Shown piece after piece: positions 49,878 to 61,635 of a stretch of DNA of 64,000 nucleotides. How positions within the stretch are numbered: position 1 is the first letter of the stretch; the number at the start of each line of letters is the position of its first letter. The DNA comes from Serratia marcescens (GTDB lineage: Bacteria > Pseudomonadota > Gammaproteobacteria > Enterobacterales > Enterobacteriaceae). The notes under the pieces were generated by a model. It was given only the letters and a program-made list of their open reading frames with translations. It made no database searches and had not been told where the DNA came from. The translations under genes and the position numbers were made by a program. Location of the stretch: NCBI RefSeq assembly GCF_001902635.1, contig NZ_MJAO01000019.1, forward strand, positions 1 through 64,000, written 5' to 3'.

Positions 49878-50732
49878 TTACAACATGCCGCTGCTGCCGC
49901 AGATGCGGATCTTTTCCGCCACCACTTCTTTCATCGCCAGCTTGCCGGGGACGATATATTTGCGCGGATCGTTGGCATCCGGATGCTGTGCAAAGTAGCT
50001 TTTCACCGCATCGGCGAAGGCGATTTTCAATTCGGTGGCGACGTTGACCTTGCAGACGCCGAGCGAGATTGCGCGCTTGACCATCGCTTCCGGAATGCCG
50101 GAAGCGCCGTGCAGCACCAGCGGCACGTCCACCTGTTCGCGGATCAGCGCCAGGCGCTCGAAGTCCAGTTTCGGTTCGCCGTGATACAGACCGTGGGCGG
50201 AACCGATCGCCACCGCCAGCGAATCGATGCCAGTGGCGGCGACGAATTCGCGAGCCGCCGCCGGGTCGGTATAGAAACTGTCCGCCGTATCGACGATCAG
50301 ATCGTCTTCCTGCCCGCCCAGGCGGCCCAGTTCCGCCTCCACGCTGGCGCCGTAGCGGTGGCACAAGGCGGCCGCAGCGGCCACTTTGGCGATGTTCTGC
50401 TCGAACGGCAGATGGGAACCGTCGATCATCACCGAACGAATGCCGCTTTTCACTTTGTGCTCGATGTCATCCAGCTCTTCGTGATGATCCAGGTGCAATG
50501 CCAGCGGCAGATCGTAGCGGTGCGCCGCCGCCTGGCAGATGCCGATCAGGTAGTCGGTGCCGGCATAGCTGAAAGTACCGGGCGTGCCGGCCATGATCAC
50601 CGGTGAGCGCAGCTCGGCGGCGGTCTCCGCCACCACCTGCACGGTCTCCAGATTGTGGACGTTAAATGCCGGGACGGCGTAGCCCTGGCGCTGGGCTTTG
50701 AGCAGCATTTCTCGGTTGGCTATCAGATACAT
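49878..50732 (-). CDS. kbaY: Class II tagatose-1,6-bisphosphate-type aldolase
   Basis: This 284-residue zinc aldolase has the length and start ([28 protein letters not shown] opening) of KbaY/GatY/AgaY. Catalytic Asp82 and zinc ligand His83 lie in [10 protein letters not shown]; His179 (GSAHGLYHG) and His207 (LVLHGASG) complete the site. It splits tagatose-1,6-bisphosphate into dihydroxyacetone phosphate and glyceraldehyde-3-phosphate. No separate KbaZ/GatZ stabilising subunit gene is present. AAGGAG precedes the ATG. It is the last gene of the agaR-agaS-aldolase operon. Confidence 0.9.
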
Positions 50733-50741
50733 GGGATCTCC

Positions 50742-51908
50742 TTACAGCGCAGGGGAAGGAAAACGGTAAATCGTCACGCCTTTCACCACCCGGTTGACTT
50801 CGCCGGTCGGGCAGGGGTTGTCCGGGGTCAGCCCCAGCGCCAGCGAACTTTCGAAGGCCAGCATTTGGGTGAACAGCAGGTACGGGAACAGTAGCCAAAT
50901 GTCGTCTTCGGCCGGATGCAGGTTCAGCATTCCGTCGGCCGTTGGCGAGTGGTCGCCGGTCAAGCCCACCATCTGCATCGCCAGCCCGTCGCGCCGCAGT
51001 TCGTTCCACAGATCGTGGTCATACTGGCGGGCGTAGTCGTCGTGGGAGAACATCACCAGCACCAGCGTCTGGCCGTCGACCATGAATTTCGGGCCGTGGC
51101 GCAGGCCGAGCGGCGAGTCGTAGCGCGTGACGATGCGGCCGGCGGTCAGCTCCAGCATCTTGAGCGACGCCTCTTCCGCCAGGCCGGTAAAGCAGCTGCC
51201 GCCGAGGGTGATATAGCGGCGAAAACCGCTGGCGGCCAGCGCTTTTACCTGCGGCTGCAGCGTTTCGCGCAGTGCGCGGCAGCGCTGTACCATGGCGTTC
51301 AGCGGCGCGTGGGCGGCCTCCAGCGAAGCCGGGCCGAGCAGCAGTGCGGCGCCCAGCATCATGCAGCTGAAGCTGGAGGTCATGGCGAAGCTTTGATCGT
51401 TAGATCCCTGCGGCATCACCAGCGAACAGACGTTGTCGCGCCGATGTGCGTACTGCGCCAGGCGGCTGTCCGGGTTGCACACCAGCATCAGGTGATAGCT
51501 TTCCGGCAGCAATTGGTCGGCCAACTCCACCGTCGCCACGCTTTCCGGGCTGTTGCCCGAACGTGCGAAGGAGACCAGCAGCGTCGGCCGCTCAGGATCG
51601 AGATACTGCCGCGGGTTGGCGACGATATCGGTGGTACCGTAGGCCACCACGTCACGGCCGGTTCTTTCGCGCAGCCAGGGCGCCAGGGCGCGGCCGGCGA
51701 AGGCCGAACTGCCGGCACCGCACAGCACGATTTGTAGCCGCGGATTGGCCAGCAGCGGTGCCAGAAACGGCTGCCACTGTGCCTGTTGATCCTGCAGTTG
51801 CCGGTGCAGCGCCGCCCACAGATCCGGCTGTTGCCAAATCTCGGCGGCGGTGTGCCAGGCGTTGCGCTGCTTTAGCCAATCCGCCTCGTAAGAGAAATAT
51901 GCGTTCAT
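50742..51908 (-). CDS. agaS: AgaS-family SIS-domain sugar isomerase/deaminase
   Basis: This 388-residue protein has two SIS domains, with GAGSSAFAGRALAPWL (about 60) and SFARSGNSPESVATVELA (about 110) in the first and FRRYITLGGSCFTGLAEEA plus DSPLGLRHGPKFMV in the second. AgaS converts galactosamine-6-phosphate to tagatose-6-phosphate with release of ammonia. A perfect AAGGAG site precedes the ATG. It sits 9 bases before the aldolase gene, whose substrate follows from its product after phosphorylation. Confidence 0.92.
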   Translation of the reverse strand: MNAYFSYEADWLKQRNAWHTAAEIWQQPDLWAALHRQLQDQQAQWQPFLAPLLANPRLQIVLCGAGSSAFAGRALAPWLRERTGRDVVAYGTTDIVANPRQYLDPERPTLLVSFARSGNSPESVATVELADQLLPESYHLMLVCNPDSRLAQYAHRRDNVCSLVMPQGSNDQSFAMTSSFSCMMLGAALLLGPASLEAAHAPLNAMVQRCRALRETLQPQVKALAASGFRRYITLGGSCFTGLAEEASLKMLELTAGRIVTRYDSPLGLRHGPKFMVDGQTLVLVMFSHDDYARQYDHDLWNELRRDGLAMQMVGLTGDHSPTADGMLNLHPAEDDIWLLFPYLLFTQMLAFESSLALGLTPDNPCPTGEVNRVVKGVTIYRFPSPAL

Positions 51909-59500: not shown

Positions 59501-59964
59501 TGCTTTCCCCTCGGTGAGCGACGAATAACGTTTTTCGCAACGTAAATTCTTTCTATCCCTTAACTTTCAGTGTGTCAATACACCCCCAAACGCCCAAAAA
59601 TGGGGCGGAAATGTTTCATTGTTGTTAAAATCGAAAGGCTTTTGCGGCCAAGCGAAAGGTGGTGTTGTTCACATTGCGTTAACTTTTTGGCGGGTTTCTC
59701 CCCGGCGGCGCAGCAGTTAGCGGCCTTCGCAGGCATAGGAATAACTGATAACCCTTGCACCATAATGGGGATTAAAAACATTTTTATTGTGCAAGCGTCA
59801 GCTTCTTTCATTTTTGTGATGCAAATAAACAAAAAAATGGGTTGCGGTTGTCAGAAGAGGGCATCAGAACGATTTTTATTACCGGCTATTGTTTGTGGCG
59901 ACAAAAGGCGCTAGCCTGAATTTCACGCCGTTTATTCATTAAAAAATAAAGAGGGCTGAACATT
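59501..59964. promoter_or_regulatory. Divergent control region of the glycan locus
   Basis: This 464-base gap separates the importer operon (minus) from the GH123-like gene (plus). It contains GTTTCATTGTTGTT (59613-59626), AATCGAAAG (59629-59637, the complement of CTTTCGATT) and a second CGAAAG at 59653-59658, exactly 21 bases or two helical turns after the first. These are good candidates for AgaR operators. Confidence 0.55.
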
Positions 59965-61635
59965 ATGCGCCTGTCCCTGGTATTTACCCATTGCCTGGAG
60001 AAAGTATTTCATCACCACAGCGTGCCACCCATTTCCGTGGAGAATCGGCTGAGTGGATTGAATAATGAAGTGCTTTCCTGGCAGGCAGTGTATTGTTTGC
60101 AAACGCCGGGCAACGAGACCCGCCATGAGCTGTGTTATCAACTGGAAGGGGCGCTGGCGGATTATATCAGCGTGCGCCAGGTGCAATCGGTGCCGAGTCA
60201 GTTTCCCTGTTATCGCGAGACCGACGAGAATTACCTGACGACCGCACCGGGGTTATTTCCCGATCCGCTGATGCCGTTGCCGCAACGGCGTTTTTTCGCC
60301 GCCTGCCGCTATTATGGCAGCCTGTGGTTGACCCTGACGCCGCCGGCAGATGCGAAACTGGCCGGCGACTATCCGTTGACCCTGCGGCTGCTGGATGCCC
60401 AGAGTGGCGAGGCGCTGGCCGAAACCACGCTGACGCTGCATCTGCTGCCGGCGGCGTTGCCGCCGCAAACGCTGTTGCACACCGAGTGGCTGCACACCGA
60501 CTGCCTGGCGGATTACTACCGTCTGGCGGTGTTCAGCCCCGATTACTGGCGCGCGGTGCGCAACTTTGTGCGCTGTGCGGTCAATAACGGTGTCAATATG
60601 CTGCTGACGCCGCTGTTCACGCCGCCGCTGGATACTGCCGTCGGCGGCGAACGCACCACGGTGCAGCTGGTGGGGGTGGCGCGTTCGGCGCAGGAGTATC
60701 GCTTCGATTTCAGCCGCCTGGCGCAGTGGGTGGCGCTGGCGCAGGAAGAGGGCATCGAACACTTCGAAATTGCGCCGCTGTTTACCCAATGGGGCGCGGC
60801 GCATGCGCCGAAGATCGTGGTGGAAGAGCAAGGCGAGACGCAGCCGTTGTTCGGCTGGCATACCGATGCGCAGGGCGAAGCGTATCAGCGCTTCCTGCAG
60901 GCACTGCTGCCGGCGTTGACCGCCTGGTTCCGCGAGCGGGGGTTGGAACGACAGGTGTGGTTCCATATTTCCGACGAACCGACGCTGGACAACCTGGCTG
61001 CCTACCAGCGCGCCAGCGCCGCGCTGCGGCCGCTGCTCGACGGTTTTCGCACTTTCGACGCGCTGTCGGATTTCGCGTTTTATCAGCAGGGCCTGGTGGA
61101 AACCCCAGTGGCGGCGACTGACCATATCGAACCCTTTATCGAACACCGGGTGCCTGGCCTGTGGGCCTATTATTGCTGCGTGCAGAAAACCGAGGTTGCC
61201 AACCGCTTCTTCGCCCAGCCTTCGGCACGCAACCGCATATTGGGTGTGCAGCTGTATCTGTACCGCATCGCCGGTTTCCTGCACTGGGGATTCAACTTCT
61301 ATAACAGCGCCCATTCGCGCGAACGTATCAATCCATTCGCCGTGACCGACAGCGGCCATGCGTTCCCCTCCGGCGATCCGTTCGTGGTCTATCCCGGCGA
61401 GGATCTGCAGCCGGTGGAGTCGCTGCGCCTGCGGGTGCTGCACCAGGGGTTGCAGGACATGCGTGCGCTGCAGCTGCTGGAGAGTTTGAGCGACAGGCCG
61501 ACGGTAGAGGCGTTGATCGAACGCGAATTGGGCATGCACATCACCTTCAAGCGCTACCCGCACCAGGCGGGGCCGCTGCTGCGCTTGCGCGAAGCGGTGA
61601 ACCGGCGCATCGAAGCGCTGTTGGCGGCGGTTTGA
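59965..61635 (+). CDS. DUF4091/GH123-like glycoside hydrolase (putative beta-N-acetylgalactosaminidase)
   Basis: This 556-residue protein has an N-terminal beta-rich part (1-160), then a DUF4091-type barrel. The Asp337-Glu338 pair in WFHISDEPTLDNL sits where GH123 enzymes have their substrate-assisted catalytic Asp-Glu dyad. The later GVQLYLYRIAGFLHWGFNFYN and VVYPGEDLQPVESLR are DUF4091 features. There is no signal peptide, so it should act in the cytoplasm on imported sugar. It is divergent from the importer and shares its control region. Assignment to GH123 is by motif memory and context. Confidence 0.75.
   Translation: MRLSLVFTHCLEKVFHHHSVPPISVENRLSGLNNEVLSWQAVYCLQTPGNETRHELCYQLEGALADYISVRQVQSVPSQFPCYRETDENYLTTAPGLFPDPLMPLPQRRFFAACRYYGSLWLTLTPPADAKLAGDYPLTLRLLDAQSGEALAETTLTLHLLPAALPPQTLLHTEWLHTDCLADYYRLAVFSPDYWRAVRNFVRCAVNNGVNMLLTPLFTPPLDTAVGGERTTVQLVGVARSAQEYRFDFSRLAQWVALAQEEGIEHFEIAPLFTQWGAAHAPKIVVEEQGETQPLFGWHTDAQGEAYQRFLQALLPALTAWFRERGLERQVWFHISDEPTLDNLAAYQRASAALRPLLDGFRTFDALSDFAFYQQGLVETPVAATDHIEPFIEHRVPGLWAYYCCVQKTEVANRFFAQPSARNRILGVQLYLYRIAGFLHWGFNFYNSAHSRERINPFAVTDSGHAFPSGDPFVVYPGEDLQPVESLRLRVLHQGLQDMRALQLLESLSDRPTVEALIERELGMHITFKRYPHQAGPLLRLREAVNRRIEALLAAV

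Follow-up and report, generated by a model that had tools for sequence, protein, structure and literature searches.

How N-acetylgalactosamine (GalNAc) might enter the galactosamine (Aga) catabolic pathway other than through a phosphotransferase system (PTS) is the question raised by a gene cluster of Serratia marcescens. The cluster occupies positions 49878-61635 of the window, by which we mean the whole stretch of 64,000 nucleotides analyzed here from contig NZ_MJAO01000019.1, and holds ten open reading frames (ORFs), all of them intact and at the coordinates given in a preliminary description made from the DNA sequence alone. Homology, gene order, and co-occurrence suggest, with a rough probability of 0.8, that this cluster is an entry module by which the GalNAc (Aga) pathway is reached without a PTS. 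Its features, with coordinates in the window and strand, are:

49878..50732, minus strand: tagatose-1,6-bisphosphate aldolase catalytic subunit of the GatY/KbaY type (TIGR01858 480 bits, cut-off 444; PRK09195 503, cut-off 384)
50742..51908, minus strand: AgaS, galactosamine-6-phosphate deaminase/isomerase (TIGR02815 541 bits, cut-off 529)
51934..52704, minus strand: AgaR, DeoR-family repressor (NF040755 386 bits, cut-off 260)
52705..53035, no strand: agaR promoter region and candidate AgaR operator with five CTTTC/GAAAG words (word counts against control windows)
53036..53956, minus strand: ROK sugar kinase, candidate GalNAc kinase in the AgaK role (PF00480 201 bits)
53960..55243, minus strand: Cys-rich Gfo/Idh/MocA NAD(P)-dependent protein (PF01408, PF22725, PF02894)
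55264..56376, minus strand: ATPase of a CUT1 ATP-binding cassette (ABC) importer, MsmK/UgpC type (PRK11650 456 bits, cut-off 432)
56398..57216, minus strand: ABC permease, MalG type (PF00528 58 bits)
57227..58183, minus strand: ABC permease, MalF type, start codon uncertain (PF00528 56 bits)
58247..59500, minus strand: periplasmic solute-binding protein (SBP) with a signal-peptide-like start, judged by eye (PF01547 136 bits)
59501..59964, no strand: divergent promoter region with six CTTTC/GAAAG words (word counts against control windows)
59965..61635, plus strand: predicted cytoplasmic Group 4 (GH123 sensu lato) exo-beta-N-acetylgalactosaminidase (PF13320 352 bits; 8k2l E=1.9e-156)

The family calls made for the ten genes in the preliminary description are borne out, as all ten proteins match a Pfam family above its gathering score (including GH123_cat PF13320, ROK, GFO_IDH_MocA, ABC_tran, BPD_transp_1 twice, and SBP_bac_1) and four of them, the aldolase, AgaS, AgaR, and the ABC ATPase, match an NCBIfam model above its cut-off. 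The ROK kinase, the Gfo/Idh protein, the two permeases, and the SBP fall below all NCBIfam cut-offs shown. NCBIfam gave no match to the GH123 protein, which, judged by eye, lacks a signal peptide, as had been claimed; the SBP, likewise by eye, possesses one.

Homology strongly supports assigning the DUF4091 protein at 59965..61635 to the Group 4 monosaccharide-releasing beta-N-acetylgalactosaminidases of the widened GH123 family, with a predicted activity on terminal beta-GalNAc. The PF13320 catalytic domain is matched over model positions 1-324 of 324 (351.6 bits, cut-off 23.1), and in the PDB two chains that bear the name monosaccharide-releasing beta-N-acetylgalactosaminidase rank first, 8k2l (E=1.9e-156) and 8k2n (5e-133), followed by 8q8h, 8p4l, and 8k2j and, weakly, by 8k2h and 8k2f. 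A founding-type GH123 enzyme was considered and rejected, as the PDB search at E<=1 listed seven sequences (the 8k2 set, 8q8h, and 8p4l), none of them named as one of the older GH123 structures. The preliminary call of a GH123 enzyme that cleaves terminal beta-GalNAc thus stands by homology, with the group corrected to Group 4. The 8k2 entries are those of Sumida et al. 2024 (PMC11087588), and from lengths, names, and entry order we read 8k2l as NgaP2 and 8k2n as NgaLy. The Serratia protein is identical to 8k2l at 256 of 531 aligned residues (48%), and its D337-E338 pair, earlier proposed to align with a GH123-type active site, does align with the catalytic SDEP pair of this solved enzyme. The Group 4 contact positions compared (W196, D244, 297, W298, and F489 of NgaP2) correspond to W175, D223, Q275, W276, and F467, which equal the residues of the 8k2l chain at a chain-numbering offset of 3; at position 297 the paper prints D297 and the chain has Q (PMC11087588).

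These features are widely kept among the best 80 of 180 confirmed GH123 matches, whose loci are numbered L022-L101. The D and E of the catalytic pair are present in 80/80 loci, and six of the seven positions made up of this pair and the contacts are identical in 80/80; the seventh, F467, is F in 21/21 loci L022-L042 and in 47 of the other 59. The nearest named loci for the GH123 protein, S. marcescens L022 (95%), S. bockelmannii L023 (94%), and S. nevei L024 (94%), place the genome in Serratia. The four characterized Group 4 enzymes, NgaP2, NgaLy, NgaBf, and NgaBl, are reported to release nothing but the monosaccharide from beta-GalNAc; NgaP2 shows 4.7% activity on a GlcNAc (N-acetylglucosamine) substrate and a relative activity of 29% on GalNAc 4-sulfate (GalNAc4S), whereas for NgaBf and NgaLy GalNAcbeta1-4Gal is preferred over beta1-3Gal (PMC11087588).

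A pathway can be proposed around this enzyme. The binding protein and CUT1 importer would take up a short glycan whose non-reducing end is beta-GalNAc, from which the cytoplasmic Group 4 enzyme would free GalNAc by substrate-assisted catalysis through D337 and E338. The ROK kinase would then form GalNAc-6-phosphate, otherwise the PTS step, which NagA, encoded elsewhere, would deacetylate, a swap known in E. coli. Judged by family, AgaS would deaminate and isomerize the product to tagatose-6-phosphate, a PfkA-type kinase would phosphorylate it, and GatY, together with AgaZ from a second locus, would cleave the bisphosphate to triose phosphates. AgaR would repress both transcription blocks via CTTTC repeats, and the Gfo/Idh protein would have an accessory redox role, with the glycan or what is left of it as substrate.

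The deacetylase and the tagatose-6-phosphate kinase are absent from the cluster, and the preliminary description had supposed that they are encoded elsewhere or that the sugar differs; candidate genes for both were found in the genome. PfkA-type kinases can act on tagatose-6-phosphate, and one match to this family above its cut-off lies on contig C20. The NagA family has a single genome match at E<=0.001, above the cut-off, on contig C21, where its neighbors resemble nagB, nagC, nagD, and nagE by eye; there is no second match at this threshold that would be agaA. By analogy with E. coli, where NagA is reported to be able to replace AgaA (PMC3668189), this NagA can be the GalNAc-6-phosphate deacetylase. 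AgaZ/KbaZ likewise has a single genome match, outside the cluster on contig C16 (PF08013 660 bits; TIGR02810 680 bits over 569). A sugar other than galactosamine, argued from the missing steps, is rejected, as AgaS, AgaR, and the aldolase score above their cut-offs and the genome encodes both NagA and AgaZ.

The AgaZ gene belongs to a second aga locus (C16:92000-104000; L117:4882-9563) that encodes AgaR2, AgaZ, and the GalNAc PTS proteins AgaV, AgaW, AgaE, and AgaF. AgaR2 adjoins AgaZ and is 76% identical to the cluster AgaR; AgaV, AgaW, and AgaF score above their cut-offs, and AgaE, at 424, falls below its equivalog cut-off of 500. Neither agaS nor agaY was seen in the 12 kb read on C16, which indicates an Aga pathway split over two loci with paralogous repressors. 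The cluster AgaS is the only match in the genome at E<=1e-30 and thus would serve the PTS and ABC routes alike, and entry through the ABC importer, hydrolase, and kinase would have been added to the PTS rather than have replaced it. Among the ten cluster proteins no PTS gene was detected with Pfam or NCBIfam; a ROK kinase is there instead, and its presence makes entry without a PTS explicable. The preliminary contrast between ABC import with cytoplasmic cleavage here and the PTS-based Aga pathway of E. coli is supported, with a refinement: hydrolase homology and the ROK kinase favor it, and the genome also carries a GalNAc PTS beside agaZ, to which the ABC route is an addition.

The nearest solved chain to the ROK protein is the GlcNAc kinase NagK (7p7i), and it reaches 279 bits against the NagK model, whose cut-off is 380. 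Two closer paralogs elsewhere in the genome (39% and 41%) score as NagK (523 bits, cut-off 380) and Mak (548, cut-off 443); as these roles have separate genes, the cluster ROK protein is left as a third kinase, and the cluster points to it as a GalNAc kinase. The SBP has Lmo0181 (5f7v) as its nearest solved chain, and a beta-GalNAc oligosaccharide is proposed as the importer cargo from the neighboring genes.

The same arrangement recurs outside the window. Loci L022-L042, 20 of them labeled Enterobacterales and one (L037) Chryseobacterium, form together with the window one side of a branch with 100% support in the Shimodaira-Hasegawa-like approximate likelihood-ratio test (SH-aLRT) of a quick tree. 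The SBP gene is divergent to the GH123 gene in 21/21 of these loci, and the permeases, ATPase, ROK protein, and AgaR are present in 19/21, the remaining two (L032 and L033) being short contigs. This recurrence exceeds chance. The same Gfo/Idh protein is found in 16 of the 21, a different one in two (Pantoea L038 and L040), and in two it is not visible; the cluster of Brenneria L030 has none. AgaS was seen in 17/21, although in six of these the stretch ends after the first part of the gene, and in 5/5 searched genomes behind these loci, above the family cut-off in four. In the two Pantoea genomes it lies ~1.8 and 2.5 kb past the fetched stretch, the second value assuming that C4 is the same contig. 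The cluster copy in the Chryseobacterium-labeled locus is enterobacterial, the tree grouping it with Citrobacter sp. 18056 (L039), and the record is probably a mislabeled or mixed assembly.

Further Aga genes accompany the cluster in several relatives. Rouxiella L031 has AgaZ (677 bits, cut-off 569) between agaR and agaS, and L034, L036, L037, and L041 have at the same place an ORF that starts like this AgaZ. Beside the module, Pantoea L118 carries kbaY (564 bits over 542), agaS (538 over 529), a NagA-family deacetylase gene (273 over 226), an agaZ-like gene (by eye), and a divergent agaR; no PTS gene was seen between, and no ORF of at least 100 aa is listed between agaS and the deacetylase gene.

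Both promoter regions of the cluster are rich in one repeated word. AgaR binds CTTTC repeats, and the 464-bp region between the SBP and GH123 genes contains six CTTTC/GAAAG words against 0.92 in shuffles, while the 331-bp region upstream of agaR contains five against 0.65. With overlapping control windows drawn from elsewhere in the 64 kb, the six-word count is reached in 0/329 windows at a G+C fraction <=0.50, 1/741 at <=0.55, and 6/3091 without a G+C limit; for the five-word count the figures are 0/373, 2/735, and 8/3111. Loci L022-L029 and L042 retain all six positions of the first region, and L035 retains five; in the second region, L022-L024 retain all five, whereas L025-L029 and L042 retain four. 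The region upstream of agaR2 on C16 has five words in 490 bp, and the Pantoea agaZ-agaR region has six in 221 bp. Tentatively, these repeats link both promoter regions to AgaR. Also between the divergent SBP and GH123 genes, at 59806-59838, lies a block, TTTCATTTTTGTGATGCAAATAAACAAAAAAAT, that is identical in eleven aligned Serratia rows and altered in Brenneria; it may be an activator site.

A search of 30 genomes of the genus addressed co-occurrence, which had been put forward as a check, and found GH123, SBP, and Gfo/Idh together. The GH123 protein is full length in 19/30 genomes, and the SBP and the Gfo/Idh protein (19/30 each) are in the same 19. AgaS is in 22/30: these 19, G021 and G029 (93%), and G003 (44%). 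In G021, agaS lies near the acyltransferase gene that flanks the cluster, and the module is absent. Genome G029 (C3; L021/L114) appears as a natural deletion: its agaS is intact, and next to it lie fragments of the GH123 gene (a 43-residue remnant) and of agaR. Few events may account for the joint absence among relatives, so that the co-occurrence supports linkage without proving it. Within the order, the GH123 protein was found in 3/394 sampled genomes, including that of the window; a survey of 72,556 plasmid records gave matches in eight, none of them enterobacterial. This distribution also bears on whether the cluster recycles GalNAc fragments of the cell's own envelope glycans instead of consuming foreign ones. 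Serratia surface polysaccharides can contain GalNAc, and the importer could recover such fragments, but the patchy occurrence (19/30 in the genus, 3/394 in the order) and the AgaR in the cluster fit an optional nutrient better, and we consider recycling very unlikely.

The other 59 loci are labeled Bacillota (57) or Lentisphaerota (2), and their neighbors were read in part. A CUT1 permease lies within 8 kb of the GH123 gene in 24 of them; in 13 it shares the strand of that gene and is no more than 3 kb upstream. Directly upstream of GH123 it occurs in 7/59, compared with 13/424 other ORFs of >=300 aa in the same loci (Fisher p=0.006). That the ABC importer, the Gfo/Idh protein, and the ROK kinase serve some other sugar, and lie between agaRSY and the GH123 gene by coincidence, would be in keeping with how common CUT1 importers are and with an SBP whose specificity is unreadable from its PDB matches. 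We nonetheless regard such a coincidence as extremely improbable in view of the divergent SBP-GH123 pairing in 21/21 loci, the joint presence in the same 19/30 genus genomes, the same repeats in both promoter regions, and the permease beside GH123 in some Bacillota.

Several observations weigh against the proposed GalNAc entry module. The matches of the SBP to solved chains appear too distant to reveal its ligand, and the ROK protein, being nearest to a GlcNAc kinase and below every NCBIfam cut-off, could serve GlcNAc if the glycan holds that sugar. The module is rare in the order, and a small number of linked deletions may underlie its joint presence and absence within the genus. In the other 59 loci no permease was seen within 8 kb in 35, eight of the 59 having less than 3 kb upstream, and the absence of a PTS in Pantoea covers the L118 stretch, no search for a PTS having been made elsewhere in Pantoea. 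A longer, 24-base AgaR consensus did not fit: its best matches in the window have 5 mismatches and none of these is in the two promoter regions, where 6-mismatch matches occur at 59855 and 59917; the count of the short CTTTC word alone stands out. Promoter-like sites number 4 against 4.4 in shuffles, and terminator-like sites 16 against 13.3.

The role of the Gfo/Idh protein was left open in the preliminary description. Its Rossmann domain is intact, with K110 in an EKP motif, H199 in CHD, and H372 in a GHGGGD loop (G371-H372-G373-G374-G375-D376) that is invariant from H372 to D376 in 13/13 aligned rows. C237, C240, C246, C290, and C294 are kept in the same 13/13 rows, which suggests a metal site or an iron-sulfur cluster. 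This five-Cys pattern is also found in the Gfo/Idh protein of Paenibacillus L047 and is absent from the different Gfo/Idh proteins of Pantoea (L038:2361-3521 and L040:2369-3529), which keep the CHD and H-x-G-x-D patterns. Across the class, the window's own genome was the only one of 369 to match the cluster Gfo/Idh protein at E<=1e-30.

Comparison with solved structures brings in the glycosidases of this superfamily. A single-sequence search of the PDB placed 6z3b/6z3c and YjhC (6o15) ahead of GH188 chains, and a profile search placed 8qc2 (E=1.1e-19) narrowly above 6z3c (2.8e-19); 8qc2 is FlSqgA, a GH188 NAD-dependent sulfoquinovosidase. K110, H199, and H372 align with positions 120, 206, and 334 of FlSqgA (HMMER, the second domain being weak at 15.6 bits), onto which Lys107, His193, and His321 of ArSqgA were mapped by equal spacing. 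The protein thus resembles GH188 and GH109 in belonging to the Gfo/Idh family and in matching the Lys and two His of SqgA, the latter being equated with the catalytic His of GH109 (PMC10755693). It differs from them in the SqgA positions not kept, in the unmatched GH109 domain, and in its extra Cys cluster: Tyr136 of SqgA is replaced by Leu139, Glu189 by Gln195, and Lys172 by Gln174, and Arg166 falls in a gap, so that the sulfonate ligands are not kept (PMC10755693). Membership in GH188 was rejected on Tyr136 and the sulfonate-binding Arg166 and Lys172. Membership in GH109 was also rejected, as neither the window protein nor any of three relatives has a Pfam match at E<=10 to its C-terminal domain, which we take to be PF21252. 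In GH109 a His reportedly lies in a GGHGG loop, to which the loop around H372 is similar but not identical.

Ordinary dehydrogenases commonly have the Lys and the first His, which leaves H372 alone to point to a glycosidase-like reaction. We see an even chance that the Gfo/Idh protein is a dehydrogenase or reductase. A new family of cytoplasmic, NAD-dependent, redox-neutral glycosidase working with the GH123 enzyme is rather unlikely. If it were true, one imported glycan would be dismantled by two unrelated mechanisms in one compartment, with substrate-assisted hydrolysis at the beta-GalNAc end and oxidation-elimination at a remaining or modified linkage.

The persistence of this gene beside the hydrolase raises the further idea that the substrate is a GalNAc glycoside other than an ordinary oligosaccharide (sulfated, oxidized, or polyol-linked), with the Gfo/Idh protein processing the unusual partner and GalNAc release being half of the job. 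The 16/21 loci with the same Gfo/Idh protein in the operon and the two with a different one accord with this, as does the acceptance of GalNAc4S by NgaP2. So does Paenibacillus cremeus L047, which within 14 kb encodes a Cys-rich Gfo/Idh protein, an SBP, a sulfatase, GH123, a tagatose-bisphosphate-type aldolase (48%), and a PfkB kinase, as well as a distant AgaS-like protein (24%). On the other hand, Brenneria L030 has the cluster without the Gfo/Idh gene, and no sulfatase was noticed in the ORF lists of eight loci among L022-L041, those ORFs not having been family-scanned. We judge such a glycoside improbable as the substrate.

Returning to the GalNAc entry module, the families involved are known and their combination is new. 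The open-licence literature yielded no report on Enterobacterales in which a GH123-type enzyme is joined with an ABC importer and AgaS, which is a weak negative. The Group 4 enzymes NgaP2, NgaLy, NgaBf, and NgaBl, which share the DE motif and Group 4 contacts with the Serratia protein, are described as enzymes, whereas in Serratia such an enzyme comes with an importer and a kinase and is linked to the Aga pathway; the main text of that paper has 0 occurrences of "transporter" and names Serratia in a reference only, and its abstract calls the biological significance of these enzymes ambiguous (PMC11087588). The conserved Serratia cluster gives a Group 4 enzyme a testable physiological role and makes the reaction of the Gfo/Idh protein approachable. 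The aga/gam pathway of E. coli, as described, shares AgaR, AgaS, tagatose-bisphosphate aldolase, and a NagA able to stand in for AgaA, but is entered by PTS, whereas the Serratia cluster has an ABC importer, hydrolase, and kinase and the PTS genes are on another contig (PMC3668189). The Shewanella AgaP/AgaK/AgaAII/AgaS system is similar in its non-PTS entry, dedicated GalNAc kinase, deacetylase, and AgaS, but is described with a permease in place of an ABC importer and cytoplasmic exo-hydrolase (PMC2996990). GnbPTS with GnbG and LnbABC likewise take up a disaccharide that contains GalNAc and have a glycosyl hydrolase inside the cell; galacto-N-biose ends in galactose, whereas the Serratia glycan would end in GalNAc and the hydrolase is of GH123 (PMC5583593). 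The Serratia cluster also suggests that the Aga pathway is modular, with a common core and interchangeable entry routes, and a second entry route appears to have been added, in Serratia and some related bacteria, to the pathway known from E. coli.

Outside the cluster, the flanking gene at 61791-63512 encodes a single protein that has both acyltransferase and GNAT domains (PF19576, PF13444). This gene is retained in G021 and G029, genomes without the module.

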